Position numbers and translations under genes: made by a program. Below, in pieces: positions 1,331 to 39,390 of a stretch of 64,000 bases of DNA (its first letter is position 1; each line of letters begins with the position of its first letter). The notes under the pieces were generated by a model that saw nothing but the letters and a program-made list of their open reading frames with translations, did not search any database and was not told where the DNA came from. The DNA comes from a bacterium (GTDB taxonomy: Bacteria > CG2-30-53-67): assembly GCA_919901565.1 (NCBI GenBank), contig CAKKPE010000050.1, positions 1-64,000 of the forward strand, in the 5' to 3' direction.

Positions 1331-1401
1331 AGGTTTTCAGTTCTCAAAAACGAATGTCCTGCCTCTCCGGGTTCTTAAACACAACGCTGTTCCAGACCGG
1401 A

Positions 1402-3328: not shown

Positions 3329-4694
3329 AGTCCTTTTCCTGTTCCCGCGGGCTGTAATTCTGAAACAGGGTATATTTCTTTTCAAAGTGGAGGGAAACCG
3401 TTCCCGTTGGCCCGTTCCTCTGTTTCCCGATAATGATCTCGGCCTTGCCCAGGTTCTCCTCGGTCTCTTTATAGACCTCATCCCGATAGACAAAGAGGAT
3501 GACGTCTGCATCCTGTTCGATGGCCCCGGATTCGCGAAGGTCCGCCAGCATGGGTTTTTTATCCTGCCGCGCCTCCACACCCCGGTTGAGCTGGGACAGG
3601 GCGATGACCGGGATATTCAGTTCCTTGGCCAGGGCCTTGAGTGAACGGGAGATCTCGGAGATCTCCTGCTCCCGCCTTTCAGAAGAGGTCTGCCCGCGCA
3701 TCAGCTGCAGATAGTCCACAATGATCATGGAGATGCCGTGTTCCATGGTCAGCCTTCGGCTCTTGGCCCGCATCTCCAGAATGGAAATGGCCGGCGTATC
3801 ATCGATAAAGATAGGCGCCTCTGAGAGTTCTCCCGCCGCTCTCGTCAGTCTCGGCCAGTCGGACTTTCCAAGCTGGCCGGTGCGGAGTCGGTGGGCGTCC
3901 ACCTTGGCCTCTGCGCAGAGCATGCGTATGACTAGCTGCTCCTTGGACATCTCCAGGGAGAAGATCGCCACGGGCTTCTTTGTCCTGATTGCAGCGTACT
4001 GGGCGATGTTCAGGCAGAGAGAGGTCTTCCCCATGGAGGGCCGCCCTGCGACGACAATCAGGTCCGATGGCTGGAATCCCGATGTCTTGATGTCCAGGTC
4101 TGTAAAGCCGCTGGGAACGCCGGTGACCAGCTCCTGTTTTTCGTAGAGGCGCTCGATGACCTCAAAACTGTCCTTGAGGATGCTGCGGATGTCCACGAAA
4201 CCCCGCCGGATGTTCTCGCCCGAGATTTCGAAGATCCGTTTTTCCGCGGACTCCAGCAGCTGTTCCACGCTCTGCCCCTCACTGAAGCCCTCGCGTACGA
4301 TATCCGTGGCTACATGGATCAGTCTGCGTGCGATGGATTTCTGCTTGACGATACGGATATAATGCTGGATGTTTGCTGCGGTAGGGACGACATCGGTCAG
4401 CAGTGAAAGATACGCTGTTCCGCCCACGCCTTCTATCAGGTCCTTCCGCGATAGGTACTCCCGGAGGGTAACCAGGTCTATGGCCTCTCCGGCCACGTTC
4501 ATCTGGGTCATCGCGGAAAAAATCTTCTGGTGGGCGCTCTTATAGAAATCGGAACTGACGATCTGCTCCAGGGCCTTGTTCATGGCCGTGTTCTGAAGCA
4601 GGATCGCCCCCAGCACGGCCTGTTCAGCCTCAATGTTCTGAGGAGGGACCTTTTCCAGGATATCTCCGGATGGGAGCAATGTTTGTTTCCTCAC
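3300..4694 (-). CDS. dnaB: Replicative DNA helicase DnaB
   Basis: Hexameric 5'-3' helicase at the replication fork, about 464 residues, full length. The N-terminal domain starts VPPQNIEAEQAVLGAILL; the RecA-like domain carries Walker A GRPSMGKTS near residue 216 and the DnaB motif VDYLQLM. Two starts are possible: GTG at 4692-4694, or an in-frame TTG at 4677-4679, which has a better-spaced GAGG in front of it. No intein is visible. It sits 75 bp downstream of rplI, the usual partner. Confidence 0.95.
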   Translation of the reverse strand: MRKQTLLPSGDILEKVPPQNIEAEQAVLGAILLQNTAMNKALEQIVSSDFYKSAHQKIFSAMTQMNVAGEAIDLVTLREYLSRKDLIEGVGGTAYLSLLTDVVPTAANIQHYIRIVKQKSIARRLIHVATDIVREGFSEGQSVEQLLESAEKRIFEISGENIRRGFVDIRSILKDSFEVIERLYEKQELVTGVPSGFTDLDIKTSGFQPSDLIVVAGRPSMGKTSLCLNIAQYAAIRTKKPVAIFSLEMSKEQLVIRMLCAEAKVDAHRLRTGQLGKSDWPRLTRAAGELSEAPIFIDDTPAISILEMRAKSRRLTMEHGISMIIVDYLQLMRGQTSSERREQEISEISRSLKALAKELNIPVIALSQLNRGVEARQDKKPMLADLRESGAIEQDADVILFVYRDEVYKETEENLGKAEIIIGKQRNGPTGTVSLHFEKKYTLFQNYSPREQEKDYAESTSHYS

Positions 4695-17619: not shown

Positions 17620-18147
17620 TCAGTTCTCACCCTTCTGCGACCGGGTGATCTGGATCTGGGTCCCTTTCTTTTCCTTGTTTTCGACCAGCATAATGTGTGT
17701 GGCGCTTCCCTGTTTATCCATGGCGATACTCACCATCTTCCCGTCCGGCATGGCCATCTCGTATGTCTTCGGATCATCCCCTTTCAGCTTCTCCTTGTAA
17801 AACGCAGACACCAGGTCGATGGGGTCCTTGGAAAAAAGGACCGTAGAAGAAAAGCCCTTTCCTCCCGCCTTGTCCATTCCCGTCATGCTTACTGTCCCTC
17901 CCTGTTCCTGCGTCGCGCCGGGGTATATCGGCACACCCAAATCCGCGGGAATCGTGTCGTTCCCTATCTTCATGGTTGCCGTTCCATCTTCAGTCTTGAC
18001 CGTCATCTCATGGGCGCTCCCGTCACCTTTCCTCGTGACCTCCACCTTGCCTTCGGGCGTTGAATAGACCTTGGTTTCCTCTTTCTTGCCGCAGGCCGCG
18101 GACATGATAAGGCAAAGCATCATAACGAACAGGACAATGTTTTTCAT
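17620..18147 (-). CDS. Hypothetical lipoprotein
   Basis: 175 residues. Signal peptide MKNIVLFVMMLCLIMSAAC with lipobox SAAC, so a lipid-anchored exported protein is likely. The mature part contains PADLGVPIYPGA followed by a region with SAFYKEKL, a pattern seen in small secreted beta-rich proteins of unknown role in anaerobic proteobacteria. GGAGGGCCC precedes the ATG. Converges with guaA; no functional link is evident. Confidence 0.75.
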   Translation of the reverse strand: MKNIVLFVMMLCLIMSAACGKKEETKVYSTPEGKVEVTRKGDGSAHEMTVKTEDGTATMKIGNDTIPADLGVPIYPGATQEQGGTVSMTGMDKAGGKGFSSTVLFSKDPIDLVSAFYKEKLKGDDPKTYEMAMPDGKMVSIAMDKQGSATHIMLVENKEKKGTQIQITRSQKGEN

Positions 18148-18741
18148 GGGCCCTCCTTCATCATCGCAGGATATGGATTACTAAAAAAAAGACCGGATGG
18201 TTATTTCATACTATGTCCCGGAGCCGCCTGTCAACCGAATCTTCAGGAACACGTTCGGGGAAGGGTCCGGGCGGGTTGTTCAATCAGGCTGGAAATCCGG
18301 GAGTGAAGAGATGACCTTTGCGGATGCGTAGATGAACAAGAAGGAGCGGAAGATGCCGGCGAAATCCATTAATTCGGAAAAAAAGCAGGGCCTTTTATAA
18401 ATATTTTTTTTGAAACTATCCATTTTTTCATGGCACTCTGATGGAAAACGAGCTTTTTTATTCCGGAAAGAACCTCTCTCCGGTTCTGGTATACCGATAC
18501 CATCTTTTTTAAAATTATCAATGATTCAATGAGTTGCAGGATAATCAGCATCAACGGCTGTTTGGGCGGAAAAATATTTTAAAAAAATGCATTTTTTTTG
18601 TGACCTTTTGATGAAATTTACCACTAATACACAGAACCGTAGAGCGGGATAGGTTCTCTATGCGCTCTATGTGTGAGATTCAATAAATTAAACCGGTTCG
18701 GGTTGCACCATACGGCCCGGCCAATCAGGGGGGGGGGCGAA
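18148..18741. other. 594-bp AT-rich intergenic region
   Basis: Lies between divergent lipoprotein and PEP-CTERM genes. It contains homopolymer A/T runs near 18375-18410 and 18580-18600 and a run of ten G close to 18727. Short open frames here lack ribosome sites and family resemblance. I found no -24/-12 element and no convincing sigma-70 pair. Confidence 0.4.
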
Positions 18742-19341
18742 ATGATGAAAAATTTTGCGAAAAAGTCTCTACTGGTTTTGGCATGTATATTATTGCCATG
18801 CCTCAGCAGCATCTCGGAGGCGGTTCCGCTCACCTTCTCGGATAGCGTGATCAACCCCGGGAGTCCAAGTTATGTGCATGTGCTCAATGATAATGTCATT
18901 GTTCCGGCGGACTCGGACGGAGAAACGGCCACACAGTCTTTCACAATCGATTCCGCCATACTGACCATCAATGCCGATATCAATCTCGGGACATTGGATG
19001 CTCATCCAGACGATTTGACCCTTGGCATGTCCGTGATAAGAACTTCGGGGAATTCCATCTTCATGGGGAGACGTGTCTTCTTAAGCAGGCATGCCGACAC
19101 GGTCCTTAAGAGCCAAATCCTCCAGTTCAGACTTACGGGCCCGGTCCTTGAGGCGCTTGGCTCAGACCTAAAGCTTCAGGTTGATCTGACCATGAATCCT
19201 CTTTTCGGCGGCAGTATAAGGGTGAATGAATCAACGCTTTCGGGCATAGCGACCATGGTCCCGGTACCCGAGCCGTCATCCCTGCTGCTTGTCGGAAGCG
19301 GAATCCTCGGCCTTTTCAGTGTATACCGCAGACGAGGGTGA
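18742..19341 (+). CDS. PEP-CTERM sorting-domain protein
   Basis: About 199 residues from the tandem ATG codons at 18742/18745; the longer frame upstream lacks a signal peptide at its end. It has an N-terminal signal peptide (KKSLLVLACILLPCLSSISE), a beta-rich body of unknown function, and a C-terminal tripartite PEP-CTERM signal: VPEPSSLLL, hydrophobic segment, then YRRRG. Such proteins are processed by exosortase in exopolysaccharide-producing Gram-negatives. No exosortase gene is in the window. The G-rich stretch before the start is an unusual ribosome site. Confidence 0.82.
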   Translation: MMKNFAKKSLLVLACILLPCLSSISEAVPLTFSDSVINPGSPSYVHVLNDNVIVPADSDGETATQSFTIDSAILTINADINLGTLDAHPDDLTLGMSVIRTSGNSIFMGRRVFLSRHADTVLKSQILQFRLTGPVLEALGSDLKLQVDLTMNPLFGGSIRVNESTLSGIATMVPVPEPSSLLLVGSGILGLFSVYRRRG

Positions 19342-19391
19342 ACCCTGCACCACGCCTTTACCCGGTTAGAGCAGAAAAATTGTCTATTACA

Positions 19392-19430
19392 TTTACCCCG
19401 TTAGAGGTCACAAGGCCTCTGACGGGGTAA
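19392..19430. terminator. Long hairpin downstream of PEP-CTERM gene
   Basis: TTTACCCCGTTAGAGG (19392-19407) pairs with CCTCTGACGGGGTAAA (19415-19430) with a single G.T wobble and a 7-base loop. No T run follows on the plus strand, so it may be a weak terminator or a 3'-protective structure. Confidence 0.55.
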
Positions 19431-19623
19431 AGATCGTCCGGAAAGCCTTTTCCAAAAACACCTTCCCATGTGAATCATAAAATATTTTTTCCCCTGGTTC
19501 TTGTTTCCTGCAGCATGGAGAACCTCTTACGTGATCTTTCCTGCCGGGAATTTTTAAACGGGCCTTGATATGGACCCGCGTTATTCGGCTCATTGGAGCG
19601 GATGGCTAAAAAGGTCCTTTCCA

Positions 19624-19653
19624 TTGACAAATCAAGAGTTTTCATAATAATAT
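19624..19653 (+). promoter_or_regulatory. Sigma-70-type promoter for the tandem-permease Mla operon
   Basis: TTGACA (19624-19629) and TAATAT (19648-19653), spacer 18 bp, about 50 bp before the first permease start. Confidence 0.6.
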
Positions 19654-19701
19654 AAGGACGTCCACGGAAAATTACTCTCTTTATTTCGGAGCCGGTCGGA
19701 T

Positions 19702-20481
19702 ATGGAATGGGCTTTGCATACGATTTCCCGCTACTTCCCCTTTGTAACGGTACTCGGGAGGATGGCCGGCTTTTTTCTGGAATCCGTGGCCGCTATTTTC
19801 ACGCCGAAATTCTATTCAGTCAGGATGCTGGAGCAGATGCAGCGGATGTGCGTCCACTGCATGGTGCCGGTCCTCTTCGTACTGGCCCCCATGGGAGCGG
19901 TTGTGGCCATGGAGAGCCTCAAGGTCTTTTCCATATTCGGCGCCTCCGGCATGACCAGCAGCCTCCTCTCCGTGGCCCTGTTCCGGGAACTTGCGCCGGT
20001 TCTGGTCTCGGTCATGGTGGCGAGCCAGGCCGGGGCGGAGACCGCTGCCGAACTCGGGGCCATGCGGGTCAGAGAGCAGATCGATGCCATGGAGGTCATG
20101 TCCGTGGATCCCCTCAAGGCCATGATTGTGCCGAGACTTCTGGCCGGGTTTTTTATCACGCCCATTCTGACCCTGGTCGGGACTTTCACCGGAATACTCG
20201 GTGGCTACATCATCGCGGTGATGGTCAAGGGATCGAACAGCGGCGCCTATATGGGAAACCTTTTTGTCTGGCTGAACATGATGGATGTGATGGGCGGTGT
20301 TATCAAGGCGGCGATTTTCGGCCTGCTGATCATGGTGATCAGCTGTCACCAGGGTTTCTACGCGAGCGGCGGGGCCGCAGGCGTGGGCCAGGCCACCAAC
20401 AATTCAGTGGTGCATTCAGTGGTTTCGATCCTGGTGGTGAATTACTTTCTGACCACCGCGTTCTTTGGGTTTAATATATGA
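19702..20481 (+). CDS. MlaE-family permease, first of a tandem pair
   Basis: 259-residue inner-membrane permease. Family signature FRELAPVLVSVMVASQAGAE, then AAELGAMRVREQIDAMEVM; C-terminal ISCHQGFYASGGAAGVGQAT is the conserved tail loop. GGAGCCGGTCGGAT precedes the ATG. A second, different MlaE protein is encoded immediately downstream, so the pair may form a heterodimer, as do the YrbEA/YrbEB permeases of actinobacterial mce operons. The TGA stop is provided by the first bases of a 126-bp repeat. Confidence 0.9.
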   Translation: MEWALHTISRYFPFVTVLGRMAGFFLESVAAIFTPKFYSVRMLEQMQRMCVHCMVPVLFVLAPMGAVVAMESLKVFSIFGASGMTSSLLSVALFRELAPVLVSVMVASQAGAETAAELGAMRVREQIDAMEVMSVDPLKAMIVPRLLAGFFITPILTLVGTFTGILGGYIIAVMVKGSNSGAYMGNLFVWLNMMDVMGGVIKAAIFGLLIMVISCHQGFYASGGAAGVGQATNNSVVHSVVSILVVNYFLTTAFFGFNI

Positions 20482-20605
20482 CGGCTTCGTAAAAAGTCCA
20501 TCTGCGGCGTTGCGCTGCGTCCTTCGTCATTGCAGCGTAGCTGTAAGTACGCCTCATTCCTCAGGACTTGCGCGCCTTGCATCTGGGCCTTTTTACTTTG
20601 CCGTC
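20480..20605 (+). repeat. 126-bp interspersed repeat with terminal inverted repeats (copy 1)
   Basis: Starts GACGGCTTCGTAAAAAGTCC and ends with the inverted GGCCTTTTTACTTTGCCGTC. A second near-complete copy lies in opposite orientation at 34477-34601, and end fragments occur at 27089-27121 and 49050-49062. Noncoding, MITE-like. Here it sits inside an operon between two permease genes and overlaps the stop codon of the first. Confidence 0.85.
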
Positions 20606-20638
20606 CCATTTGAGGATTTTTTCAAATATAGGCGGCTC

Positions 20639-21412
20639 ATGGAAGTTGTCAACGTACAGGTGCTGGGCCTTTTCGGATACCTCTTTGCAGAGGTCGGCAG
20701 GTATGCCTATTTCGTCGCGGAGACATTCCGCAACCTGTTTTACAAGAAGTTTTATTTTCTCAACCTGATCGACGAGATGAACACCATAGGGAGCCGGTCC
20801 CTGCTTGTGCTGGCCCCGGTGTCGGTCTTTGTGGGGATGAACCTCTGCGTAGAGGGGTTCATCTTCTTCAAGAAATTCGGTGCGCAGAACCTGGTCGGGA
20901 TGTTCGTGGCCGTGGCCAACATCCGTGAGCTTTCCCCGCTGATTGCGGGACTGATTACGGGGGCCAAGGCCGGCACACAGATGGCCGCCCGGATCGCGAC
21001 CATGCGGATAACCCAGCAGGTTGACGCCATGGAGGTTATCGGGGTCAATCCCTACGCCTACATGATCATCCCCAGGGTGATAGGCGCCATACTCGTCATG
21101 CCGTTCCTGGTGGTGGTCGCCTACTTTGTGAGCACGCTCTCGGCCTATCTGGTTGCGGTCTACCAGCTCGGCCTGAACGGGGATGCATTCATGAACCTGG
21201 TCTTTGCCAACATTACCATGCAGGACATGTACAAGGGGATGATCAAAGGGGCTGTCTTCGGCGGGATCATCGCCACAGTCTCCTGCTACAGCGGCTACAC
21301 GGCCTCGGGCGGGGCCCGCGGTGTGGGGGCGGCCACGAACCTGGCGGTGGTCCGGATGTCCACGGCAGTGGTTTTTTTCAATATCTTTCTAACGGAATGG
21401 ATGTTCATGTAA
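20639..21412 (+). CDS. MlaE-family permease, second of a tandem pair
   Basis: 257 residues from the ATG at 20639. The open frame extends upstream through the 126-bp repeat, but that part is repeat-derived and not MlaE-like. Signature IRELSPLIAGLITGAKAGTQ, then AARIATMRITQQVDAMEVI; tail VSCYSGYTASGGARGVGAAT. It differs from its neighbour in the coupling loop (GTQMAARIA against GAETAAELG), so this is not a recent duplication. It precedes the ATPase gene by 9 bp. Confidence 0.88.
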   Translation: MEVVNVQVLGLFGYLFAEVGRYAYFVAETFRNLFYKKFYFLNLIDEMNTIGSRSLLVLAPVSVFVGMNLCVEGFIFFKKFGAQNLVGMFVAVANIRELSPLIAGLITGAKAGTQMAARIATMRITQQVDAMEVIGVNPYAYMIIPRVIGAILVMPFLVVVAYFVSTLSAYLVAVYQLGLNGDAFMNLVFANITMQDMYKGMIKGAVFGGIIATVSCYSGYTASGGARGVGAATNLAVVRMSTAVVFFNIFLTEWMFM

Positions 21413-21421
21413 GAGGGGTTC

Positions 21422-22243
21422 ATGATCGAGTTTCGCCATGTGTACAAATCCTTCGGTGACCTTGTGGTTCTGGATGATGTCTCCTGCGAGATCCCCGAGG
21501 GGAAGATCACCATGATCATCGGGCCGAGCGGGACCGGGAAGAGCGTTTTTATCAAACTTATGGTCGGTATCGTAAAACCTGACAGCGGAGATGTCATCGT
21601 GGACGGCCATGTGATCTCGAGTCTCCCGACCCATGAACTCTATGAGGTGCGCAAAAAATTCGGCGTCCTTTTCCAGGATGGGGCGCTTTTTGATTCCATG
21701 AGCGTGGGGGAGAATGTGGCCTTCCCGCTCCGGGAGCATACCCGTCTTTCGAATGCAGAGATCTCAAGGATCGTTTCGGACAAGCTGACATCGGTCGGGA
21801 TGCCGAACTCCGAATGCCGTCTGCCCAGCGAGCTCTCGGGCGGCATGAAGAAAAGAGCGGCCCTGGCCCGTGCCATCGTTATGGAGCCGGACATCGTGGT
21901 CTTTGACGAGCCCTCTTCGGCCCTGGACCCCGTGACCGCGGATTCCATTGACAACCTGATCCTGGAAATGCAACAGAGGCTCCAGTGCACCTTCGTGGTG
22001 GTGAGTCACGATATTGAAAGCACCTTCAAGATTGCAGACTATATCGGGATGCTGTGGCAGGGGAAGCTGATAGCCTTCGGAGAAAAAGATAAAATCATGA
22101 ACATGAACAACGACGTCCTCCGGCAGTTTTTCAGCCGGCGTGCCCAGGGGCCGATCCAGATCGTGCCGCCGATATGCAAGGACCTTGATGAAGCAGGAAG
22201 CAGGGGTGCGGGGAACGGCCGGGATGTCTCAAGCAAAAAATAG
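21422..22243 (+). CDS. MlaF-like ABC transporter ATP-binding protein
   Basis: 273-residue ATPase for the tandem-permease system. Walker A GPSGTGKS near residue 37, signature LSGGMKKR, Walker B IVVFDEPSSALDP, switch VVSHD. The C-terminus has a short basic extension. GAGGGG lies before the ATG. Compared with the other two MlaF proteins in the window, the D-loop PSSALDP replaces PTTGLDP or PTTGQDP, so the three ATPases are distinct paralogues. Confidence 0.92.
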   Translation: MIEFRHVYKSFGDLVVLDDVSCEIPEGKITMIIGPSGTGKSVFIKLMVGIVKPDSGDVIVDGHVISSLPTHELYEVRKKFGVLFQDGALFDSMSVGENVAFPLREHTRLSNAEISRIVSDKLTSVGMPNSECRLPSELSGGMKKRAALARAIVMEPDIVVFDEPSSALDPVTADSIDNLILEMQQRLQCTFVVVSHDIESTFKIADYIGMLWQGKLIAFGEKDKIMNMNNDVLRQFFSRRAQGPIQIVPPICKDLDEAGSRGAGNGRDVSSKK

Positions 22244-22290
22244 ATCCATGTGCGTCATGATTTTAAGGGCTGCGGGATAAGGAGAACCAA

Positions 22291-23214
22291 ATGGGTCAGA
22301 ACCGATTCGTGGTATTAGGGCTGTTCGTGCTTCTCGCTATGGCGATGTTCTTTTACCTTGCCTACAAAGTGGAGTCGTTCTCCCTGGGCCGGGGGACCGA
22401 GGTGACGGTCCTGTTCGAAGACGCCACCGGCCTGAAGAAGGGTGGGGATGTCAAGATCAAGGGGGTGATCTTCGGGAAAATCACGTCGCTTGATTACCAG
22501 GACAACCGGGCTGAGGTCAGGATCCGGCTCCCGCGGGACGTCAAGGTCCCACGGGATGTCATGGCCAGGATCCGTCCGGAAAGCCTGCTCGGTGAGAATT
22601 TCCTCGAACTGATCATCCCGGCGGGAAGCACTGCGGAACCGCTCAAGTCCGGGGACGTGATCACCAATTCCAGCAAGGCCATTGACATCAACCAGTTCGT
22701 GGACAAGGTAGGGGTCTTCATCGAACGATTCGATGCCTCGAACTTTCCGGATAATCTCAGCAAGATTGTGGCAACCCTGGCGGACAACAGCGGAAGAATC
22801 CAGGAGACGATCAAGAACCTCGACAAACTGGCCCTGGATGCCAGTGCCCTGATCTCCGGAAACAAGGATTCGCTCCAGAGGACCATCCAAAACTTCGACA
22901 GGCTTACTGCCGCTTTTGGCAAGGAGGCTCCGAAGAGCGCGGAAAATCTCAATCAGATCCTCGCCCGCCTGGAGAAATTGACAGGCGACCTGGAACAGAA
23001 GTCTCCGGACCTGGCCGAGGACCTGGGCAGGACCATGAAGAACCTCTCCGCTGCTTCCGAGGAACTTCCCAAGACCTTGCAGGATGTTCAGGAACTTTCA
23101 GCAAGACTTCATACCACGCTGGACAATGTGGACCATTTCTTTCTTGAGGATACCCCTGATATCAAGGACATCCTGGAAAACCGGGGGATCAAGACAAGAG
23201 TCAGGATCTGGTAA
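22291..23214 (+). CDS. MCE-domain protein MlaD-like, long form
   Basis: 307 residues: N-terminal anchor VVLGLFVLLAMAMFFYLAY, one MCE domain (GGDVKIKGVIFGKI to SLLGENFLELI), then about 170 residues of helical, coiled-coil-like sequence with many Leu/Asn/Lys. Long tails of this type in PqiB- or MCE-like proteins can form periplasm-spanning channels. Much longer than the 157-residue MlaD at 37.3 kb. GGAGAACCAA ribosome site. Last transport gene of this operon; no MlaC or MlaA is adjacent. Confidence 0.9.
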   Translation: MGQNRFVVLGLFVLLAMAMFFYLAYKVESFSLGRGTEVTVLFEDATGLKKGGDVKIKGVIFGKITSLDYQDNRAEVRIRLPRDVKVPRDVMARIRPESLLGENFLELIIPAGSTAEPLKSGDVITNSSKAIDINQFVDKVGVFIERFDASNFPDNLSKIVATLADNSGRIQETIKNLDKLALDASALISGNKDSLQRTIQNFDRLTAAFGKEAPKSAENLNQILARLEKLTGDLEQKSPDLAEDLGRTMKNLSAASEELPKTLQDVQELSARLHTTLDNVDHFFLEDTPDIKDILENRGIKTRVRIW

Positions 23215-23216
23215 TC

Positions 23217-23597
23217 ATGAACCGACGCCTGTTCAACATCAAAGAGCTCCTGGATAAGATGCCTTCCGAGGCCAACCGGATCGTCCTCTTCGCGGATGCA
23301 TATGTCATGGGGAGCCTCTGGAGGCTGGGTCCGGGTGAAGAGATCTACCCGCACCAGCATCCCGGCTCCGATGATGTCTGGGTGGTGCTGAAAGGGGAGG
23401 GGGAATACTGGATGGAAAAGGACACTCCCCCATGCAGGCTGAGCGAGGGGATGGTGGCCCTGGCCCCGGCACGCCATGCCCACGGCGTGCGGAACACGGG
23501 CAAAGAGGCCCTGGTTTTTATTTCCATGACGGCGCCCCAGCCTCTGGATATTGAGCCTGTGGAAGGTCTTGCTGATAAGAATACGGAAAAAGGATAA
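23217..23597 (+). CDS. Cupin-domain protein
   Basis: 126-residue single-domain cupin. Motif 1 contains PHQHPGSDDVWVVLKGEGEYW and motif 2 PARHAHGVRNTG, giving the usual His-rich metal site of a small beta barrel. Two bases after the MCE stop, so cotranscribed with the Mla-type operon. Substrate unknown; single-domain cupins range from isomerases to sensors. Confidence 0.82.
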   Translation: MNRRLFNIKELLDKMPSEANRIVLFADAYVMGSLWRLGPGEEIYPHQHPGSDDVWVVLKGEGEYWMEKDTPPCRLSEGMVALAPARHAHGVRNTGKEALVFISMTAPQPLDIEPVEGLADKNTEKG

Positions 23598-23765
23598 CCC
23601 CCGGTCTCTGTTTTTTCCTGCTCCCTTATCCCGGAAAGCCCCGTGCTTCAGCTCCGGTGAAAAATTTATTACGATCACCCGGCTCTTTGGGATTGAGTTC
23701 GCCGCCGTCTTGTGATACACATATTAAATTAAAGAAAAAGGCCTGTTTTAACTTTGGAGTGATCA

Positions 23766-24845
23766 ATGCCGAAAGAATTTGTCCCCAAGTGGATTGCCTG
23801 GGAGACCACGCAGCGGTGCAACCTGCGGTGCGTGCACTGCCGCTGTTCTTCGGATATGGAGGCCTCGGAGGGGGACTTCACCACAGAAGAGGGTAAAAAG
23901 CTCATTGACGATATCGTCGAGTTCTGCAGCCCCGTACTGGTCCTCTCCGGCGGCGAACCGCTTCTCAGAAAGGATATCTTCGAAATTGCCAGGTACGGGA
24001 CTGACAAGGGGCTGCGCATGTGCATGGCCACCAACGGGACCCTGATCGACGATACGGTCTGCGAGAAGATCAAGTCCTCGGGAATCCGGATTGTCTCCCT
24101 GAGCCTGGACGGATCCAGGGCCGAGATCCACGACAATTTCCGGGCGTGCCCCGGCTCTTTTGACGGGATTCTCCGGGGAGCCGCGATGCTGAAGAAATAC
24201 GGGATCGAGTTTATCATCAACTCCTCCTTTACCAAGAGGAACCAGCACGATATCGCCAATGTCTTCAAACTGGCCAAGTCCATCGGGGCCACGGCGTGGT
24301 ACATGTTCATGATCGTTCCTACGGGCCGAGGTGAGGAGATCATGTCCGAGCTCATCTCCAAGGAGGACTATGAGGAGATCCTCAAGTGGCACTATGAACA
24401 GGAGAAGTTGGAGAAGGATATCCTGATGCGGCCCACCTGCGCCCCGCATTACTACCGGCTGGTGCCTCAGCTCGCGAAGAAAGACGGGAGCCGCTTCGAA
24501 CGGCGGACTCTGAAGTTTTCCACCGGAGGGGCCAAGGGGTGTATAGCAGCGCAGTCCATCTGCCTGATCGACTGCTTCGGGAATGTGAAGCCCTGCAGCT
24601 ACTTCCAGAGGTCGGCCGGGAATGTGAAGCAGCAGAAATTCAGGGAGATCTGGGAAAACTCGCAGCTTTTTAAAGACCTCAGGGATTTTAAGCAGTACAA
24701 GGGAAAATGCGGCGTCTGCGAATACATCAACGTATGCGGCGGATGCCGGGCCCGGGCCGATTCGGTCTACGACGACTATATGGCCGAGGAGCCCTTCTGC
24801 AATTATATTCCGGTGAAGATGCAGAAGACCGGAGATAATAAATAG
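23766..24845 (+). CDS. Radical SAM/SPASM protein, AhbD/NirJ-like
   Basis: 359 residues. The radical SAM 4Fe-4S cluster motif is at Cys18, Cys22 and Cys25 (CNLRCVHC), with GGEPLL and a SAM-binding region behind it. A C-terminal SPASM-type domain has several cysteines ([31 protein letters not shown]) for auxiliary clusters. This architecture fits the haem-synthesis radical SAM proteins AhbC/AhbD/NirJ, and hemE and hemH follow directly, which supports a tetrapyrrole role. The exact reaction is not settled by sequence alone; a peptide-modifying SPASM enzyme is the alternative. Confidence 0.75.
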
Positions 24846-24946
24846 ACGGCAGAGGGCAGAGGACGGAAGAACAGTAAAAGAAGTGGGCGGTAAAATCAGA
24901 AGGCTGAAGGCTGAACGCAGTGTGCGGACGGCAGACGACAGAGGGG

Positions 24947-25037
24947 CCCCCTCACCTTTATCCTCCCCTTAGGGGAGAGGAGAGAAGAAAAGAAAAGCGT
25001 GGCCCTCTCCCCTGCGGGGAGAGGGGAGGGTGAGGGG
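24947..25037. repeat. Palindromic intergenic repeat before hemE
   Basis: CCCCTCACC at 24947 and GGTGAGGGG at 25029-25037 bracket a GC-rich block containing CCCCTTAGGGGAGAGGAG and CTCTCCCCTGCGGGGAGAGG hairpins. Upstream, 24843-24945 is purine-rich low-complexity sequence related, in opposite orientation, to 60985-61225. Confidence 0.65.
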
Positions 25038-25081
25038 TTTATGATGTTTTATAATCTTCAAACTCCTTGAAAGGGGATGAG

Positions 25082-26119
25082 ATGGCATTCAATGATCTTT
25101 TTCTCAGGGCATGCAGGCGGGAACCCGTGGAGATGACCCCGGTCTGGATGATGCGCCAGGCGGGAAGGTTCCTGAAAACTTACCGGGACCTGCGTGAAAA
25201 GGCGGACTTTCTCACCATGTGCAAGACCCCTGAGCTTGCAGCGGAAGCCACGCTTCTCCCTGTCAACGAACTGAATGTGGATGCAGCCATCCTCTTTTCC
25301 GATATCCTGATTCCGGTGGAGGCCATGGGCATGGCGCTTGACTTCACGCCGGCCCCGGTTTTTGCCGAACCCATACGGAACGGCAAACAGATTGAGGCAT
25401 TGCGTATACCCGATCCAGAGGAGTCGGTCCCTTTTGTCATGGAGGCCATCCGGATTCTGCGTCGGGAACTCACCGGCCGGGTGCCGCTCATCGGATTCTC
25501 CGGCGCGCCGTTTACTCTGGCCTCCTACATGGTGGAAGGTGGGGGGTCCAAAAACTATATCCCTTTCAAGAGCCTTATCTATCAGGAGCCGGAACTCTAT
25601 GCCCGGCTCATGGACAAGATCACCGAGACCGTGATCCGCTACCTTAATGCTCAGATCGCAGCCGGGGCCCAGGCCGTGCAGATCTTCGATACCTGGGGCG
25701 GCATCCTCACCCCCGAGGATTTCGAGACCTATGACCTCCCCTATACCGTAAAGGTCATCCGGGGACTGAAAAGAAAAGGCGTCCCGGTCATCCACTACGT
25801 GGGAACCGGATCCGCTCTCCTGGGCAGGATAAAAAATTCCGGCGCCGATGTCATCGGAATAGACTGGCGCATCGGGATTGACGAGGCCCGGCGGATACTG
25901 GGTCCGGATCTTGCCGTGCAGGGGAACTTTGACCCCACGGCCCTGTTTGCACCCATCCCGGAGATACAGCGGAGAGTCCGGGAGATCCTGGACAAGGCCG
26001 GTGATGCTCCGGGACATATCTTCAACCTGGGGCACGGGATCCTTCCCGCCACGCCTGAGGCGCATGCCAGGGCTCTGGTGGATGCGGTGCACAACTACAG
26101 CCGAAAAAAGAACGCATGA
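25082..26119 (+). CDS. hemE: Uroporphyrinogen III decarboxylase
   Basis: Decarboxylates uroporphyrinogen III to coproporphyrinogen III. 345 residues from the ATG at 25082, preceded by AAAGGGGATGAG; the frame is also open from a TTG five codons earlier. Hallmark N-terminal PVWMMRQAGRFL, then LFSDILIPVEAMGM, and the C-terminal GNFDPTALFAP and NLGHGILP. Overlaps hemH by four bases (ATGA). Confidence 0.95.
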   Translation: MAFNDLFLRACRREPVEMTPVWMMRQAGRFLKTYRDLREKADFLTMCKTPELAAEATLLPVNELNVDAAILFSDILIPVEAMGMALDFTPAPVFAEPIRNGKQIEALRIPDPEESVPFVMEAIRILRRELTGRVPLIGFSGAPFTLASYMVEGGGSKNYIPFKSLIYQEPELYARLMDKITETVIRYLNAQIAAGAQAVQIFDTWGGILTPEDFETYDLPYTVKVIRGLKRKGVPVIHYVGTGSALLGRIKNSGADVIGIDWRIGIDEARRILGPDLAVQGNFDPTALFAPIPEIQRRVREILDKAGDAPGHIFNLGHGILPATPEAHARALVDAVHNYSRKKNA

Positions 26120-27090
26120 CAGACAAGACCGCGGTCATCCTCCTGAATCTGGGCGGCCCCGAAAACGAGGAGCAGATCCGTCCTTTCCTGCTCAGGCTCT
26201 TTTCCGACCGCGACATCATCCGGCTCCCCATGCAGCCGCTTCTCTCCCGTCTCATCGTCCACTTCCGGTCCCCAAAGGTTATTGAAAATTACAGGAAGAT
26301 CGGTGGCGGCTCCCCGCTATTGAAGATCACCATGGCCCAGGCTGAGACCCTGGAAGCGGCGCTTCACGAAAGGGGTCTCGATGCACACGTCCTCGTAGCC
26401 ATGCGTTATACGGCTCCGCGCTCGGATGATGCGGTGCGTGAAGCATTGTCCAGAGGGGCAAAAACGATCCTAGCACTCCCGCTTTACCCGCATTTCTCAC
26501 AGGCTACTACGGGGTCGAGCCTGAGTGACCTTGGCCGGGCCGCGGCCAAGGCCGTTACATCAGGTGCGATCCGCATCAAGGAGGTCAAAAGCTTCTGCGA
26601 TCATCCGACGTATCTGGATGTGCTTGCCGACAAGGTAAGGCAGGGATTGAATTCCTTCTCGTCTGAACATCACGGAAAGGTAGAGGTCATCTTTTCGGCC
26701 CATGCCCTTCCGCAGAAGATGATCGATCAGGGGGATCCCTATCTTTCCGAGATTCAAAAGACCATTCAGGGCGTATTGCAGAGGGTCGAACCGGTGTCCC
26801 ATCATCTTGCCTTTCAGAGCCGGAGCGGACCGGTCCGATGGATGAAGCCCGGAACCGATGAGGTCATCCGTGCTCTCGCCGCGCAAGGAAAGAAAGCCCT
26901 GCTCCTCGTTCCCGTGAGTTTCGTCTCGGATCATATCGAGACGCTCTACGAGATCGACATCCTTTACAAGGAACTCGCCCTCTCCTCCGGGATTCTGGAA
27001 TACAGAAGAACCGAATCCCTGAACACCGACCCGGCCTTCATCTCGGCCCTGGCCCGGATCGTTACAGATAGGCTTTCTGCTAAGTTTTGA
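26116..27090 (+). CDS. hemH: Ferrochelatase
   Basis: Inserts iron into a porphyrin (protoporphyrin IX or, in some lineages, coproporphyrin III), 324 residues. N-terminal LLNLGGPENEEQIRPFL, the catalytic His in VIFSAHALP, and the acidic partner in SFVSDHIETLYEID are all present. Coupled to hemE. The TGA stop forms the first bases of a truncated copy of the 126-bp repeat family. Protoporphyrinogen oxidase is not in the window. Confidence 0.94.
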   Translation: MTDKTAVILLNLGGPENEEQIRPFLLRLFSDRDIIRLPMQPLLSRLIVHFRSPKVIENYRKIGGGSPLLKITMAQAETLEAALHERGLDAHVLVAMRYTAPRSDDAVREALSRGAKTILALPLYPHFSQATTGSSLSDLGRAAAKAVTSGAIRIKEVKSFCDHPTYLDVLADKVRQGLNSFSSEHHGKVEVIFSAHALPQKMIDQGDPYLSEIQKTIQGVLQRVEPVSHHLAFQSRSGPVRWMKPGTDEVIRALAAQGKKALLLVPVSFVSDHIETLYEIDILYKELALSSGILEYRRTESLNTDPAFISALARIVTDRLSAKF

Positions 27091-34425: not shown

Positions 34426-34476
34426 GGGCTTGCCCCTCTGCTTAAGGAAGTTCTATTCGTTGAATTATAAATCTGT

Positions 34477-34601
34477 GACGGCAAAGTAAAAAGCTCCAGA
34501 TGCAAGGCGCGCAAATCCTGAGGAGTGAGGCGTACTTATAGCTACGCTGTAGCGACGAAGGATGCAGCGCAACGCCGCAGATGGACTTTTTACAAAGCCG
34601 T
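34477..34601 (-). repeat. 126-bp interspersed repeat (copy 2, inverted)
   Basis: Reverse-complement copy of 20480-20605 with scattered substitutions. Its ends are GACGGCAAAGTAAAAAGCTC and ATGGACTTTTTACAAAGCCG. Lies between the kinase gene and rnpB, directly at the 3' side of the RNase P RNA. Confidence 0.85.
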
Positions 34602-35235: not shown

Positions 35236-36072
35236 ATGAAAGAACGGGGAAGAGCTGAAGAGATGGAGTCGACGATAAAACACAACTTCCTTAGGCTGTT
35301 CTTTGATTTTCTCGGCAAAAAGACGGTCGCGGCGATACGCGATACAGGGGCGGTAGCGATATTTTTTACGGTTTCCTTTCTCAAGATTTTTCAGCCCAGG
35401 CAGCTGCGGGAGATCGTCCAACAGGTCTTTTACATCGGAGCCAAGTCGGCAAGTATTGTGATGCTCATCGGCCTCTTTACCGGCATGGTGCTCGGTCTTC
35501 AGCTTTTCTTTACGCTGACGAAATTCGGCTCTCAGGGCGTACTCGGTTCGGTCGTTGCCCTCTCGCTCATCAGGGAACTGGGCCCTGTGCTTACGGCGAT
35601 CATGATTACCGCACGGGCCGGCTCCGCTATGGCCGCGGAAATCGGCATCCTGCGCATTTCCGAGCAGATCGACGCCCTGTATACCATGCGGATCGATCCT
35701 CAACGATACCTCATCAGTCCGCGTCTTGCCGCCTCCGTCATTAGCTTCCCCCTTCTCACCGCATTTTTTGATCTGATCGGAATACTCGGGGGATATCTCA
35801 CCGGTGTGCTCCTGCTCGGTGTGGATAGGGGCGCCTACTTTTATCGAATCCATTCCTATGTGGACCTGGCCGATATCAGGGTCGGCTTCATCAAATCGCT
35901 CATCTTTGCCGTGATCGTGTCGACGACCTGCTGCTACCAGGGATATTTCACCCACCTCCGTACCGACAGCTACGGCGCAAAAAGCGTCAGTCTTTCGACG
36001 ACGTCGGCGGTTGTATTCTCGTGCGTCCTGATCCTGATCGCAGATTACATCGTGACGTCCTTGCTCATGTAG
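35236..36072 (+). CDS. mlaE: MlaE-like permease of the complete Mla operon
   Basis: 278-residue permease. Signature IRELGPVLTAIMITARAGSA and AAEIGILRISEQIDALYTM; C-terminal CCYQGYFTHLRTDSYGAKSV differs from the usual GGAEGVG loop of the other copies. The start could be 35236 or the ATG at 35263; neither ribosome site is strong. First gene of mlaE-mlaF-mlaD-mlaC-mlaA, which implies a full system linking inner and outer membranes. Confidence 0.88.
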   Translation: MKERGRAEEMESTIKHNFLRLFFDFLGKKTVAAIRDTGAVAIFFTVSFLKIFQPRQLREIVQQVFYIGAKSASIVMLIGLFTGMVLGLQLFFTLTKFGSQGVLGSVVALSLIRELGPVLTAIMITARAGSAMAAEIGILRISEQIDALYTMRIDPQRYLISPRLAASVISFPLLTAFFDLIGILGGYLTGVLLLGVDRGAYFYRIHSYVDLADIRVGFIKSLIFAVIVSTTCCYQGYFTHLRTDSYGAKSVSLSTTSAVVFSCVLILIADYIVTSLLM

Positions 36073-36080
36073 AGGTGCCT

Positions 36081-37331
36081 GTGGAAACGCCGTTGATAGA
36101 ATTCAAAGAAGTCACCAAGCGGTTTGACGAAAAGACTGTTTTCGACAAGTTGAATTTCACGATTTACGAGAACCAGATCACGACCATCATCGGGAAGAGC
36201 GGAAGCGGCAAGAGCGTTCTCCTCAAACACATCATCGGGCTGCTTTTTCCTGAGGAAGGGAGCATTCTTTTCAAAGGAAGGCCCGTTCACGAGATGAAGA
36301 AGGGCGAATGGGACGGATACCGGAGCCGGATCAGCTACATGTTCCAGGGCAATGCCCTTTTTGATTCAATGACGGTCTTTGAAAACATAGCCCTTCCGCT
36401 CAGGCAGACAACAAACCTCGTCAGGAAGCAGGTCGAACAGAAAGTGATGTCGCGGATCGAACAGATGGAGATCATAGACGCTGTTCATCAGTACCCGTCG
36501 GAGCTCTCGGGGGGAATGCAGAAACGGGTGGCCCTTGCCCGCGCTCTCGTAACAGAACCGACCATCGTGCTTTTTGACGAGCCTACAACCGGGCAGGACC
36601 CTATCAGGAAAAACGCCATCCTGAGCATGATCGCCCATTACCGGAAACAGCTCGGCTTCACCGCCGTTCTCATCAGCCATGACATCCCCGACGTTTTTTT
36701 TATTTCCGACCGCATTCTCCTGCTCTGGGAAGGAAAGATGGCCTTCAGCGGGACCTATGAAGAACTGACGCACCTGAAACATCCGCTGATTGATGAATTT
36801 CTCCGGAGCCTCGAAGGCCTGAGGGACGAGCTCACCGGGCTGCTTTCCAAAGAGATATTCAGGTCCCGGTATGCCCTGACGCTGGGCGGCGGGCGTGTCG
36901 ACACCACCATCACGGCCGTGCTTTTCAGCGTCCACCTTGACCTTCTTGGGGATGTGTTCGTTCCCCAAGCTGTTGCAGAGGTCCTCAAAGCCCTCGGTGA
37001 GTATGTAAACAAAGTTTTCGGTCCCCTCGGAGGGTTCTCGGCCCGCCACAGCAGGGACAAGATACTTAGCATTTTGCAGCACATAGGAATTGAAAAAGTC
37101 GGGCAATTAGTACATGATATAGCCCAGGAGCTCCAGAACAAAGCTCTTCCCGATTTCCAAGCTCATGCCGGTGGCAGGATAGGAGTCAAGCAATGTTTCG
37201 AAATATCGGTGACCGCAGGCATGACTGAAGGCAGCTCTACTGATGACATTGAACAGATCATGGAGAAGGCCGAAGCAAATCAAAAGATAATAGCGAAGTA
37301 TCGGTGCGGCAAGGAGGGTGGTTCACCATGA
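36081..37331 (+). CDS. mlaF: MlaF-like ATPase fused to a degenerate GGDEF-like domain
   Basis: 416 residues from GTG 36081, which has AGAGG five bases upstream. Residues 1-245 are a complete MlaF: Walker A GKSGSGKS, LSGGMQKR, LFDEPTTGQDP, ISHD. From about 248 a further 168 residues begin LRDELTGLLSKEIF, like the opening of diguanylate cyclase domains, and end VTAGMTEGSSTDDIEQIMEKA, like their C-terminal half. The GGDEF signature site reads ARHSRDKI, so cyclase activity is not expected. MlaF normally ends near 270 residues, so the tail is unusual. Overlaps mlaD by 4 bp. Confidence 0.87.
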   Translation: METPLIEFKEVTKRFDEKTVFDKLNFTIYENQITTIIGKSGSGKSVLLKHIIGLLFPEEGSILFKGRPVHEMKKGEWDGYRSRISYMFQGNALFDSMTVFENIALPLRQTTNLVRKQVEQKVMSRIEQMEIIDAVHQYPSELSGGMQKRVALARALVTEPTIVLFDEPTTGQDPIRKNAILSMIAHYRKQLGFTAVLISHDIPDVFFISDRILLLWEGKMAFSGTYEELTHLKHPLIDEFLRSLEGLRDELTGLLSKEIFRSRYALTLGGGRVDTTITAVLFSVHLDLLGDVFVPQAVAEVLKALGEYVNKVFGPLGGFSARHSRDKILSILQHIGIEKVGQLVHDIAQELQNKALPDFQAHAGGRIGVKQCFEISVTAGMTEGSSTDDIEQIMEKAEANQKIIAKYRCGKEGGSP

Positions 37332-37801
37332 AAAAGTATTCGATCGAAACGGTTGTGGGCATTTTTGTGATTGCCGGCCTTCTCAGTATTGTATATATGA
37401 CTGTGAAACTCGGCAAGGTCTCCCTGTTCGGAGATGATTACTATTCACTTTATGCTAATTTTGGAACGGTGTCCGGTTTGCGGGTCGGCAGCCCTGTTGA
37501 GATTGACGGTATCGAGGCCGGCCGGGTGGAACGATTGAGTATAGACCAGGAAAAACAGGTGGCGGTGGTCGAATTAAAGATCAAGAAAGGAATCAAGGTT
37601 TATGATAACGCCGGAGCGTCAGTCAAGACGGCCGGTCTCATCGGCGATAAATTCATAAAAGTCGATCCCGGAGGCGGAGGCGAGGTCCTTAAGCCGGGCG
37701 AAAGGATTACCGAGACCACATCTCCCCTCGATATAGAGGATATGATCGGTAAATACGCATTCGGAGATATCAAAAAAGACAATAAAGAGGATACCAAATA
37801 A
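37328..37801 (+). CDS. mlaD: MCE-domain protein MlaD
   Basis: 157 residues from the ATG at 37328 with AAGGAGGGTGG ahead. One N-terminal membrane anchor (VVGIFVIAGLLSIVYM), one MCE domain (VGSPVEIDGIEAGRV, GLIGDKFIKV) and only a short charged tail, the compact E. coli-like form. Translationally coupled to the MlaF-GGDEF gene. Expected to form the hexameric ring that receives lipid from or passes it to MlaC. Confidence 0.92.
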   Translation: MKKYSIETVVGIFVIAGLLSIVYMTVKLGKVSLFGDDYYSLYANFGTVSGLRVGSPVEIDGIEAGRVERLSIDQEKQVAVVELKIKKGIKVYDNAGASVKTAGLIGDKFIKVDPGGGGEVLKPGERITETTSPLDIEDMIGKYAFGDIKKDNKEDTK

Positions 37802-37818
37802 ACTTTCAGGAGGAAACA

Positions 37819-38412
37819 ATGAAGAAACATCTCGTTATCGCGGCACTCATTTTGTGCCTGATCGTTCCGGTTTCCGCCCTTGCAGGGGTTCCGCTTGATA
37901 TGGTGAAAGGTAATGTCGACAAAGTGCTGGAGGTACTGCGCGACCCGTCGCTCAAGGCCGAATCCGCCAAGAAGATCAAGAAGGATAAAATCATGGACAT
38001 TGCGGATAAGATGTTCGACTTTACCGAACTTTCAAAAAGGACGCTGGCCCAGTACTGGAACAAGTTAAATGCAGCGCAGCAGAAGGAGTTTGTCGATCTC
38101 TATAAGTCTCTGCTCGCGGATACCTATGCGGACAAGATACTGCAGTACACCGAGGAGAAGATAGTCTTCGGCAAAGAGGTGCCGCTTGCCGAAAAGACCG
38201 TGGAAGTCCAGAGCACGGTCATGAGAAAAAATGGGGATGTCTCGATCTACTACAGAGTGATACAGGATGACGGCTCATGGAGGATCTACGATGTGGTCAT
38301 CGAAGGCGTAAGCCTCATCAGTAACTACCGCTCCCAGTTTAAAGAGATCCTTGCGAACAAGCCGCCGGAATCATTACTCGAGACGCTCAGAAAAAAAACT
38401 GGCAAAACGTAA
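37819..38412 (+). CDS. mlaC: Periplasmic phospholipid-binding protein MlaC
   Basis: 197 residues with a cleavable signal peptide (LVIAALILCLIVPVSALA). The mature MlaC/Ttg2D domain includes MFDFTELSKRTLAQYW, NAAQQKEFVDLYKSLL and the beta stretch DGSWRIYDVVIEGVSLISNY. Shuttles lipid between MlaA and the MlaFED complex. Ribosome site AGGAGGAAAC, 17 bp after mlaD. Confidence 0.93.
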   Translation: MKKHLVIAALILCLIVPVSALAGVPLDMVKGNVDKVLEVLRDPSLKAESAKKIKKDKIMDIADKMFDFTELSKRTLAQYWNKLNAAQQKEFVDLYKSLLADTYADKILQYTEEKIVFGKEVPLAEKTVEVQSTVMRKNGDVSIYYRVIQDDGSWRIYDVVIEGVSLISNYRSQFKEILANKPPESLLETLRKKTGKT

Positions 38413-38448
38413 GCCGCTCATGAAGAAACCGCAAAAAAGGACAAAACG

Positions 38449-39390
38449 ATGAAACTCATATCTATTTCTATACTTACCGCTGTTTTTGCACTCTGTCCGG
38501 CCTTGTTAAGGGCAGATATGTTTTTGATAAATCCCGATATACGAACAGCTCAGCCGGTAGTGCCGGATGCAAATACAGCCTCGCAGATACCGCCGTCATG
38601 TACCTCACCGGACTATACCCTACCGCTCTGTTATCAGGTTCATGCTCCGAGCGGAGAGATGCAAATCCTCCTGACGCAGCGCAACGAGGCTGAAGAAAAA
38701 ATGATCGTGGAGCCGGTGCCTGCTGCAAACACGTATGTTCCTGATGAGAGTAAAAAGGAAACCCCGCAGATTCTTGACCCTCTTGCTCCCGTGAACAAGG
38801 TCATGTTCCATGTTAATGACAAGCTGTACTTTTGGGTACTCAAGCCGGTGGCTCAGGGATATTCCTTTGTTGTTCCCGAACTGGTGAGAACAGGCCTCGG
38901 CAATGCTTACGACAATCTCAAGTCGCCGGCCAGAATAGTGAACAATCTGCTGCAACTGAGGCTCAAACGGTCAGGGAATGAACTCATCAGGTTTCTTTTC
39001 AATTCCGTTGTAGGGATCTGTGGCCTTGGCGATGTTTCCAAGGGACTTCTCGGCATCGATAAACAGGAGGCTGATTTCGGCCAGACGCTGGGCCGTTACG
39101 GCGTGGGCCACGGTTTGTATCTCGTATTGCCCATACTCGGGCCTTCTTCAGTTCGTGACGGGGTCGGGCTTGCCGGAGATACGTTTATGTATCCCATGAC
39201 TTATGTGAGTATTCATTATCTGAACTTTTGGGAAGGTGCAGCGCTCTATACACACGAAAAGGTGAATGATACCTCATTCAGGATCGGAGATTATGAGGCT
39301 TTCAAGCAGGCGGCCATAGATCCTTATGTCTCCATGCGCGACGCCTTTGTCCAGTATCGGCAGAAAAAAGTTGAGGAAGCAAGGCGATAG
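38449..39390 (+). CDS. mlaA: Outer-membrane lipid-asymmetry protein MlaA (VacJ)
   Basis: 313 residues. The conserved MlaA domain covers roughly 105-300: DPLAPVNKVMFHVNDKLYFW, PARIVNNLLQLR, FGQTLGRYGVGHGLYLVLPI and GPSSVRDGVG. Unlike the enterobacterial protein, the signal sequence lacks a proper lipobox; the only nearby Cys is in FALCP, so a soluble or peripherally attached form, or another anchoring mode, is implied. About 80 extra residues precede the domain. Last gene of the operon. Confidence 0.92.
   Translation: MKLISISILTAVFALCPALLRADMFLINPDIRTAQPVVPDANTASQIPPSCTSPDYTLPLCYQVHAPSGEMQILLTQRNEAEEKMIVEPVPAANTYVPDESKKETPQILDPLAPVNKVMFHVNDKLYFWVLKPVAQGYSFVVPELVRTGLGNAYDNLKSPARIVNNLLQLRLKRSGNELIRFLFNSVVGICGLGDVSKGLLGIDKQEADFGQTLGRYGVGHGLYLVLPILGPSSVRDGVGLAGDTFMYPMTYVSIHYLNFWEGAALYTHEKVNDTSFRIGDYEAFKQAAIDPYVSMRDAFVQYRQKKVEEARR

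Follow-up and report, generated by a model that had tools for sequence, protein, structure and literature searches.

Tandem genes for two unlike MlaE-family permeases, followed by a single ATPase gene and a single gene for a long MCE protein, raise the question of whether the four products form one lipid transporter with a heterodimeric permease. They lie on the forward strand at positions 19702-23214 of the window, i.e. the 64,000-nucleotide stretch of DNA analysed here, from a bacterium whose phylum is little known. ORF calls and Pfam matches bore out the preliminary description of the locus as four tandem forward-strand ORFs, in which two adjacent MlaE-family permeases carrying the motifs it quoted are followed by one ATPase and one long MCE protein of 307 residues. 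Permease A (19702..20481, 259 aa) was identified from its ORF, its Pfam match, and its place in the A lineage of the permease trees, and permease B (20639..21412, 257 aa) from Pfam, the start sites of its orthologs, and its place in the B lineage. The ATPase (21422..22243, 273 aa) displays Walker A, LSGG, Walker B, and H-loop patterns, and the MCE protein (22291..23214, 307 aa) comprises an N-terminal helix, an MCE domain at approximately residues 35-130, and a predicted helical tail at approximately residues 133-285.

The second permease required a corrected gene call. The mechanical ORF at this position (20465-21412, 315 aa) begins inside the end of permease A and reads through a dispersed repeat copy whose inverted ends are imperfect. 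This copy lies between A and B (20479..20622, forward strand), outside of the transporter, and when read in frame accounts for approximately residues 4-60 of that ORF. Orthologs start at the equivalent of the ATG at 20639, which is preceded by AGGCGG, and permease B was hence taken to start at this ATG, and not at the upstream TTG, giving a protein of 257 aa. A scan of genome contigs with the 315-aa ORF recovered no relative because its patterns included repeat-encoded residues, while the scan with the ortholog alignment recovered three loci (in genomes G005, G004, and G002).

Both permeases match the Pfam MlaE family (PF02405) across 209-211 of its 212 positions, with 226.7 bits for A and 214.5 bits for B (cut-off 22.5), and both score under the 212.2-bit cut-off of TIGR00056 (MlaE family lipid ABC transporter permease subunit), at 196.2 and 183.2 bits, respectively. 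The third gene product is an ABC ATPase according to Pfam; the pattern check used for ATPase motifs was coarse and overlooked them in several rows, so that only the intact motifs of the window family were used. The MCE protein matches the MlaD/MCE domain (PF02470, 62.3 bits, cut-off 25.1) and, more weakly, Mce4_CUP1 in its tail (35.2 bits, cut-off 32.6). This genome has four MCE systems, the operon among them, with five MlaE and four MCE matches in total. One of these systems is a canonical Mla set at 35236-39390, including MlaC and MlaA genes at 37819-39390, and a Pfam scan of the operon neighbours (17620-24845) found no MlaC, MlaA, or MlaB, although components encoded elsewhere could serve the operon. 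The term “Mla-type” used previously thus holds for membership of the MlaE/MCE family and not for the Mla pathway. The operon has one MCE gene, where actinobacterial mce operons combine yrbEA-yrbEB with six mce genes.

The pair is not peculiar to one genome, a possibility raised in the preliminary description and ruled out by finds elsewhere: five of the eight phylum genomes examined encode it, two lack it, and one could not be judged. The pair adjoins an ATPase gene in G002-G005, and the same A and B lineages stand in tandem in four further, distant genomes (G060, G324, G048, and G322), around two of which class-level surveys covered one genome (G060) and two genomes (G048). Within the window family there is one ATPase and one MCE gene per two permeases. 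This make-up is not uniform, since the G060 locus carries two ATPase and two MCE genes and the 10 kb examined of G322 yielded no recognisable MCE gene. In G005, permease A is interrupted by an in-frame stop, which may be an assembly error. Pairwise dN/dS values are similarly low for B (0.059-0.170), A (0.082-0.167), the ATPase (0.062-0.100), and the MCE protein (0.097-0.156), and B as a decaying copy is ruled out by values as low as those of A.

Phylogenies of the permeases placed A and B in separate lineages. In a tree of 59 permeases, A grouped with its counterparts from G048 and G060 (99/97), as did B (98/99), and in a tree of 66 permeases the B and A lineages were supported at 99/99 and 94/91, respectively. 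In the latter, the branching order G060,(G324,(G048,G322)) was identical in both lineages; the place of the window sequences inside their family differs between the A tree and the B tree. Two G005 permease A fragments (in-frame stop), two G012 fragments, a contig-end fragment of G000 contig 8, and the cut second permease of G177 were left out of the trees, and the long-branch permease pair of G145 was omitted from the 66-row tree. Among the ATPases of A/B operons, seven of eight fell in one set (96/96), which also included the ATPase of G145. The comparison with mycobacterial YrbEA/YrbEB, suggested earlier as a check, dismissed just one of the four possible groupings, that of B and YrbEA (p-AU 0.011 and 0.018); A with YrbEA (supported at 90/77 in the 66-row tree), B with YrbEB (p-AU 0.40), and A with YrbEB (p-AU 0.16) are all compatible with the data. 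A and B as a single clade, i.e. the product of their own duplication, scored 13 log units lower and is not favoured, and not rejected either (p-AU 0.093 and 0.105). A rather improbable reading is that A/B represent the diderm branch of the ancient duplication behind YrbEA/YrbEB, in which case heterodimeric MCE permeases would be far older than the mycobacterial systems. The operon would then preserve an intermediate, its permease heterodimeric and its MCE needle homohexameric, whereas Mla combines a homodimer with a homohexamer and Mce1 a heterodimer with a heterohexamer.

Fixed residues in TM1 and around the coupling helix also set the two lineages apart (E. coli MlaE numbering; TM2 and coupling-helix naming follows PMC7790496 and PMC7784689, each in part). 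In permease A, the end of TM2 towards the coupling helix (20026..20067, forward strand) runs from Gln109 (E. coli 111) through GAETAAELGAMR (residues 111-122), with Glu117 corresponding to E. coli 119; in permease B, the same region (20966..21007, forward strand) runs from Lys110 (E. coli 111) through GTQMAARIATMR (residues 112-123), with Arg118 corresponding to E. coli 119. Position 111 is Gln in all eight A rows, Lys in all nine B rows, and Arg in 29 of 30 single permeases, and position 119 is Glu in 8/8 A rows, 0/9 B rows, and 27/30 single permeases. In TM1, position 65 is P in A and F in B, and position 69 is V/I in A and N/S in B. Arg97, Glu98, and Lys205 are retained in both lineages, the contact residue E127 is variable in each, and every A and B row has Asn in place of Asp250, as do all five YrbEA rows. 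A decaying second permease lacking conserved coupling residues had been named earlier as a refuting outcome; the conserved Glu of the AAE motif is indeed absent from B, as a fixed trait of its lineage and not as a sign of decay. Each of these fixed differences may reflect a single old event. As a general mark of heterodimers, the complementary 111/119 pattern was rejected: other pair types (T2 and T3) have R or K at 111 and E at 119, and YrbE proteins also lack the Gln/Lys and Glu/non-Glu split.

For the MCE protein, the modelled MCE domain superimposes on E. coli MlaD (5uw8_B) over 95 residues with a Z-score of 17.2 and an rmsd of 1.2. Tail helices are predicted at residues 133-145, 149-187, 192-237, and 239-285, with pLDDT mostly under 50, and the tail sequence matches Mce1F and another Mce1 chain up to residues 285-287. 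The proposal of a periplasm-spanning helical tail is thus backed by the match to Mce1 chains, while the tail model itself is of low confidence. In the model, approximately ten residues follow the last predicted helix, and no C-terminal outer-membrane beta-barrel is present. The protein ends in GIKTRVRIW (23185..23211, forward strand), and a similar stretch ends the other pair-linked MCE proteins seen.

Taken together, we consider it likely that A and B form a heterodimer on one ATPase dimer beneath a long MCE needle, as a single lipid ABC transporter. The four genes would encode one transporter of the MlaE/MCE kind, with A paired to B, two copies of the single ATPase powering it from the cytoplasm, and, in the simplest case, six copies of the single MCE protein forming a ring over the permease, whose helical needle would cross the periplasm and end in a short strand from each subunit. 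The asymmetry of the permease might serve an asymmetric or different lipid. A stoichiometry of two ATPase and six MCE subunits is proposed by analogy with MlaFEDB and Mce1. The data directly establish what the four genes encode, that the pair is conserved, that selection on A as well as on B is purifying, that the separate A and B lineages recur together, and that each lineage has its own fixed residues in TM1 and around the coupling helix; the A:B heterodimer itself and the needle are inferred. An AlphaFold2 model of permease B alone had a mean pLDDT of 34.6. A precedent exists in the solved structure of a YrbE1A:YrbE1B heterodimer with an MceG homodimer (PMC9882608, in part).

Homodimers are conceivable because each of the two permeases has preserved almost the whole residue set of a self-sufficient MlaE (97, 98, and 205), along with a full MlaE domain. 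Each permease might then homodimerise and share the ATPase and MCE ring, yielding two transporters with different lipid preferences from one operon. Sharing of a single ATPase type among permeases has a parallel in MceG, which serves several Mce systems. We consider this arrangement unlikely, however, as the A and B lineages occur jointly in four further genomes, where their branching orders agree, the tandem pair of mycobacteria is a heterodimer in the solved structure, and positions 111 and 119 carry opposite lineage-fixed changes. That B (or A) is a duplicate with a redundant or regulatory role and heading for loss, with the other permease working as a homodimer, appears very improbable: the absence of Glu119 from all nine B rows and the in-frame stop in the G005 permease A (possibly an assembly error) would fit, but B evolves under dN/dS as low as that of A, and both permeases are kept in five of eight phylum genomes and four others.

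A different proposal concerns the substrate, and is compatible with an A:B heterodimer: the transporter may carry a non-phospholipid lipid, e.g. a haem-pathway compound or a hopanoid. In G048, the same strand carries a squalene-hopene cyclase gene downstream of the operon; a radical SAM gene with AhbD as its nearest match (454 bits, under the 500-bit cut-off), hemE, and hemH follow the operon in the window, G003, G004, and G005; and Asp250 is Asn throughout A, B, and the five YrbEA rows. Each such neighbourhood has, however, been observed in a single lineage, no cyclase was found in the window or the other loci examined, and the phosphate-binding Arg97 of MlaE is retained, making this substrate improbable.

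Among known systems, mycobacterial Mce1 (YrbE1A, YrbE1B, Mce1A-F, and MceG) shares unlike tandem MlaE-family permeases, one ATPase type, and, as the sequence match also indicates, long MCE chains, whose helical needle (PMC9882608, in part) has a predicted counterpart here, whereas the window operon has one MCE gene instead of six and includes its ATPase gene. The Mla pathway (MlaFEDB with MlaC and MlaA) shares an MlaE-family permease, an MlaF-like ATPase, and an MlaD-type MCE domain, but the window operon has two unlike permeases, no adjoining MlaC or MlaA gene, and an MCE protein of 307 aa compared to 183 aa in E. coli. Minimal MlaEFD systems with a long MlaD, from Veillonella parvula and others, likewise consist only of permease, ATPase, and long MCE protein with a long helical part (PMC10665443, in part), which is predicted for the window protein; here there are two permeases, and the C-terminal stretch is too short for an outer-membrane barrel. 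It could resemble the two barrel-less long MlaD cases for which tiny six-strand barrels were predicted in the same source. Other tandem operons (G144, G268, G045, G177, G230, and G145) also have adjacent MlaE genes with MCE and ATPase genes where the contig allows, but their permeases belong to other lineages, and G144, G268, and G045 have two ATPase genes. Among the open-licence papers listed by literature searches, none described the diderm A/B pair. Its novelty is limited, since permease gene duplication in mce-like operons of Gram-negative bacteria was already noted in 2007 (PMC1810536, in part), the YrbE1AB heterodimer has been solved, and long MlaD proteins are reported to be the majority (PMC10665443, in part).

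Overall, the operon represents a genuine and conserved, though modest, departure from an established type of pump. The fixed opposite changes between A and B at positions 111, 119, 65, and 69 provide testable residues. If the heterodimer is real, an asymmetric permease would stand under an MCE ring made of one protein, separating features that are joined in mycobacterial Mce1, and permease asymmetry could be tested without six unlike MCE subunits.

The four genes at 19702-23214 lie on the + strand and carry the motifs quoted in the preliminary description when the open reading frames are read again in the window, and profile matches bear out the families named there, namely two MlaE permeases (A, then B), one ATPase, and one MCE protein. 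Orthologs of permease B align from the ATG at 20639, giving a protein of 257 residues. The second open reading frame as called mechanically was rejected as permease B; its TTG start falls within the last part of permease A, and a dispersed repeat is then translated as part of it. The operon is real and conserved: rather than being unique to the window genome, the tandem pair occurs in five of the eight genomes compared within the phylum CG2-30-53-67 (G000, the window genome, and G002, G003, G004, and G005). The G001 contig includes the downstream genes and stops just short of the operon position, so that absence of the pair there cannot be judged, and in G006 and G007 hemE is present with no operon trace beside it and no tandem pair. 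Pairwise dN/dS ranged from 0.082 to 0.167 for A, 0.059 to 0.170 for B, 0.062 to 0.100 for the ATPase, and 0.097 to 0.156 for the MCE protein, so that B has been conserved no less strictly than A. In G005, a single in-frame stop interrupts permease A within the coupling-motif region (2251-2253 of locus L013); the gene is otherwise intact, and the stop reflects either real gene disruption or an error in the assembly.

A radical SAM gene, hemE, and hemH follow the operon in the window, G003, G004, and G005, and the G002 contig ends within the ATPase gene. The window's radical SAM protein, encoded with the adjoining hemE and hemH at 23766-27090, is nearest to heme b synthase AhbD (454 bits, short of the 500-bit cut-off), and an AhbD-like gene beside hemE and hemH combines two haem routes in an unusual way. 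A dispersed repeat beginning TGACGGCTTCGTAAAAAG has one copy (20479-20622) between the two permeases and a further copy at 34474-34601 on the - strand. With 40 of 72 candidates scored, this repeat has 41 matching stretches genome-wide including the junction copy, one of only 29 bases; the others are 83-98% identical, and 12 aligned copies display inverted-repeat-like ends. The repeat is absent from the A-B junction in the four relatives G002 to G005, in which A and B are spaced by 9-15 bases.

MlaE matches were obtained in 254 of 319 sampled genomes. Matches listed for genomes outside the phylum with two or more of them (26 + 73 genomes) revealed same-strand neighbouring permeases in at least 8 of the 312 genomes beyond the phylum. 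Gene order is A-B-ATPase-MCE in G048; A-B, two ATPases, and two MCE genes in G060; two unlike ATPases, two unlike permeases, and one MCE gene in G144, G268, and G045 (loci L034, L035, and L036); permeases-ATPase-MCE in G230; and ATPase-MCE-permeases in G145, while the G177 operon is cut by the contig. Across 386 genomes, a B-lineage profile scored best, among the matches listed, in G005, G003, G048, G060, and G324 (at least 334 bits; next 259.5), and a second permease adjoins the match in G324. A tandem pair is also present in G322, from the same class as G048, and its B scored only 252.8 bits. The gap in scores is therefore no sharp boundary, and the pair counts given here are lower bounds. 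The G048 junction (L033 6900-6986, -) contains a different repeat-like reading, MNVIPAKAGIQ...LDPRLRGDD, presumably a common palindromic-repeat peptide. The G048 operon is followed on its own strand by an aspartyl-protease-like frame and then a squalene-hopene cyclase gene (L033 1445-3463, -); no such cyclase gene was found in the window or the other operon loci examined. The second G060 ATPase (L032 8679-9614, +) shows no Walker A or H-loop by crude pattern and falls outside the group of other operon ATPases in the tree, and is possibly degenerate.

Maximum-likelihood analysis of 59 permeases placed A together with the first permeases of G048 and G060 (99/97) and B together with their second permeases (98/99), the remaining tandem pairs falling in other groups and those of G144, G268, and G045 forming separate lineages of their own. 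A 66-row tree, to which G324, G322, and further YrbE sequences were added and from which the long-branch G145 pair was left out, recovered the B lineage at 99/99 and the A lineage at 94/91, below the starred level. Both lineages branch as G060,(G324,(G048,G322)), with some weak forks (88/60 in B, 94/86 in A), and within the phylum they place the window differently. Seven of eight ATPases from A/B operons form one set with the G145 ATPase (96/96). Inheritance of A and B as a unit is the best explanation for the recurrence of both lineages together. Regarding the paired YrbEA and YrbEB permeases of mycobacterial mce operons, grouping B with YrbEA was rejected (p-AU 0.011 and 0.018), and none of A with YrbEA, B with YrbEB, A with YrbEB, or A with B was. 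By profile score, MlaE is the nearest solved structure for both; A scores higher against YrbE1A (115) than against the other Mce1 permease chain (94), which we take to be YrbE1B, and B slightly lower (85 vs 90.5). One duplication common to A/B and YrbEA/YrbEB is possible.

The modelled MCE domain of the 307-residue protein is sound, matching E. coli MlaD (5uw8_B) with a Z of 17.2 and an rmsd of 1.2 over 95 residues. The tail is predicted as helical from ~133 to 285, with pLDDT mostly under 50 in a model from only three sequences, and sequence matches to Mce1 chains extend through residues 285-287. If extended, its about 150 helical residues would span roughly 230 Å at 1.5 Å per residue, similar to the about 225 Å reported for Mce1 (PMC9882608). 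A C-terminal GIK-x-x-x-R-x-W is common to this protein and both G060 MCE proteins (EGIKVHIRAY, EGIKGHIRAW), with partial likeness in G048 (EGIKVNFLSH), and was not found in those of G145 and G230. If each MCE subunit contributed one strand, the result would resemble the tiny six-strand barrels predicted for two long MlaD proteins classed as barrel-less (PMC10665443). Long MlaD proteins are reported to account for 85% of homologues in a survey (PMC10665443). The genome holds five MlaE and four MCE matches in total, including a canonical Mla set (MlaE, ATPase, MlaD, MlaC, and MlaA) in the window (35236-39390), a single-permease system (~225-2265), and one system truncated where contig 8 ends. 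In the window's other system (551-4694, -), genes for dnaB, alr, an MlaE-type permease, and an ATPase stand in an order that recurs in G001, G006, and an Azospirillum plasmid, including locus L052 3166-7510.

Casali and Riley (2007) describe duplication of the DUF140 (permease) or ATPase gene in some Gram-negative mce-like operons, and YrbEA and YrbEB as having evolved as a pair (PMC1810536); YrbE1A:YrbE1B is reported as a solved heterodimer (PMC9882608). No account of the A/B permease class was found in searches of open-licence papers. The distinct coupling motifs noted in the preliminary description are right, and residue alignment (8 A, 9 B, and 30 single permeases; E. coli MlaE numbering) reveals a lineage-fixed difference. 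At position 111, all 8 A carry Gln, all 9 B carry Lys, and 29/30 single permeases carry Arg; at position 119, Glu is found in 8/8 A and 27/30 single permeases, the 9 B having Arg, Asn, His, Ser, or Ala instead. This opposite pattern was not seen in the other tandem pair types. A and B also differ at positions 65 (Pro vs Phe) and 69 (Val or Ile vs Asn or Ser), and the cavity is described as lined by TM1, TM2, and TM5, with the coupling helix linking TM2 and TM3 (PMC7784689, PMC7790496). Arg97, Glu98, and Lys205 are retained in every A and B row, Asp250 is replaced by Asn in all of them and in 5/5 YrbEA, and E127, a published ATPase contact, is variable in both. Overall, the operon probably encodes an MCE transporter with a heterodimeric permease, and the loss of a positive residue in A and of a negative one in B may signal a division of labour between its halves.
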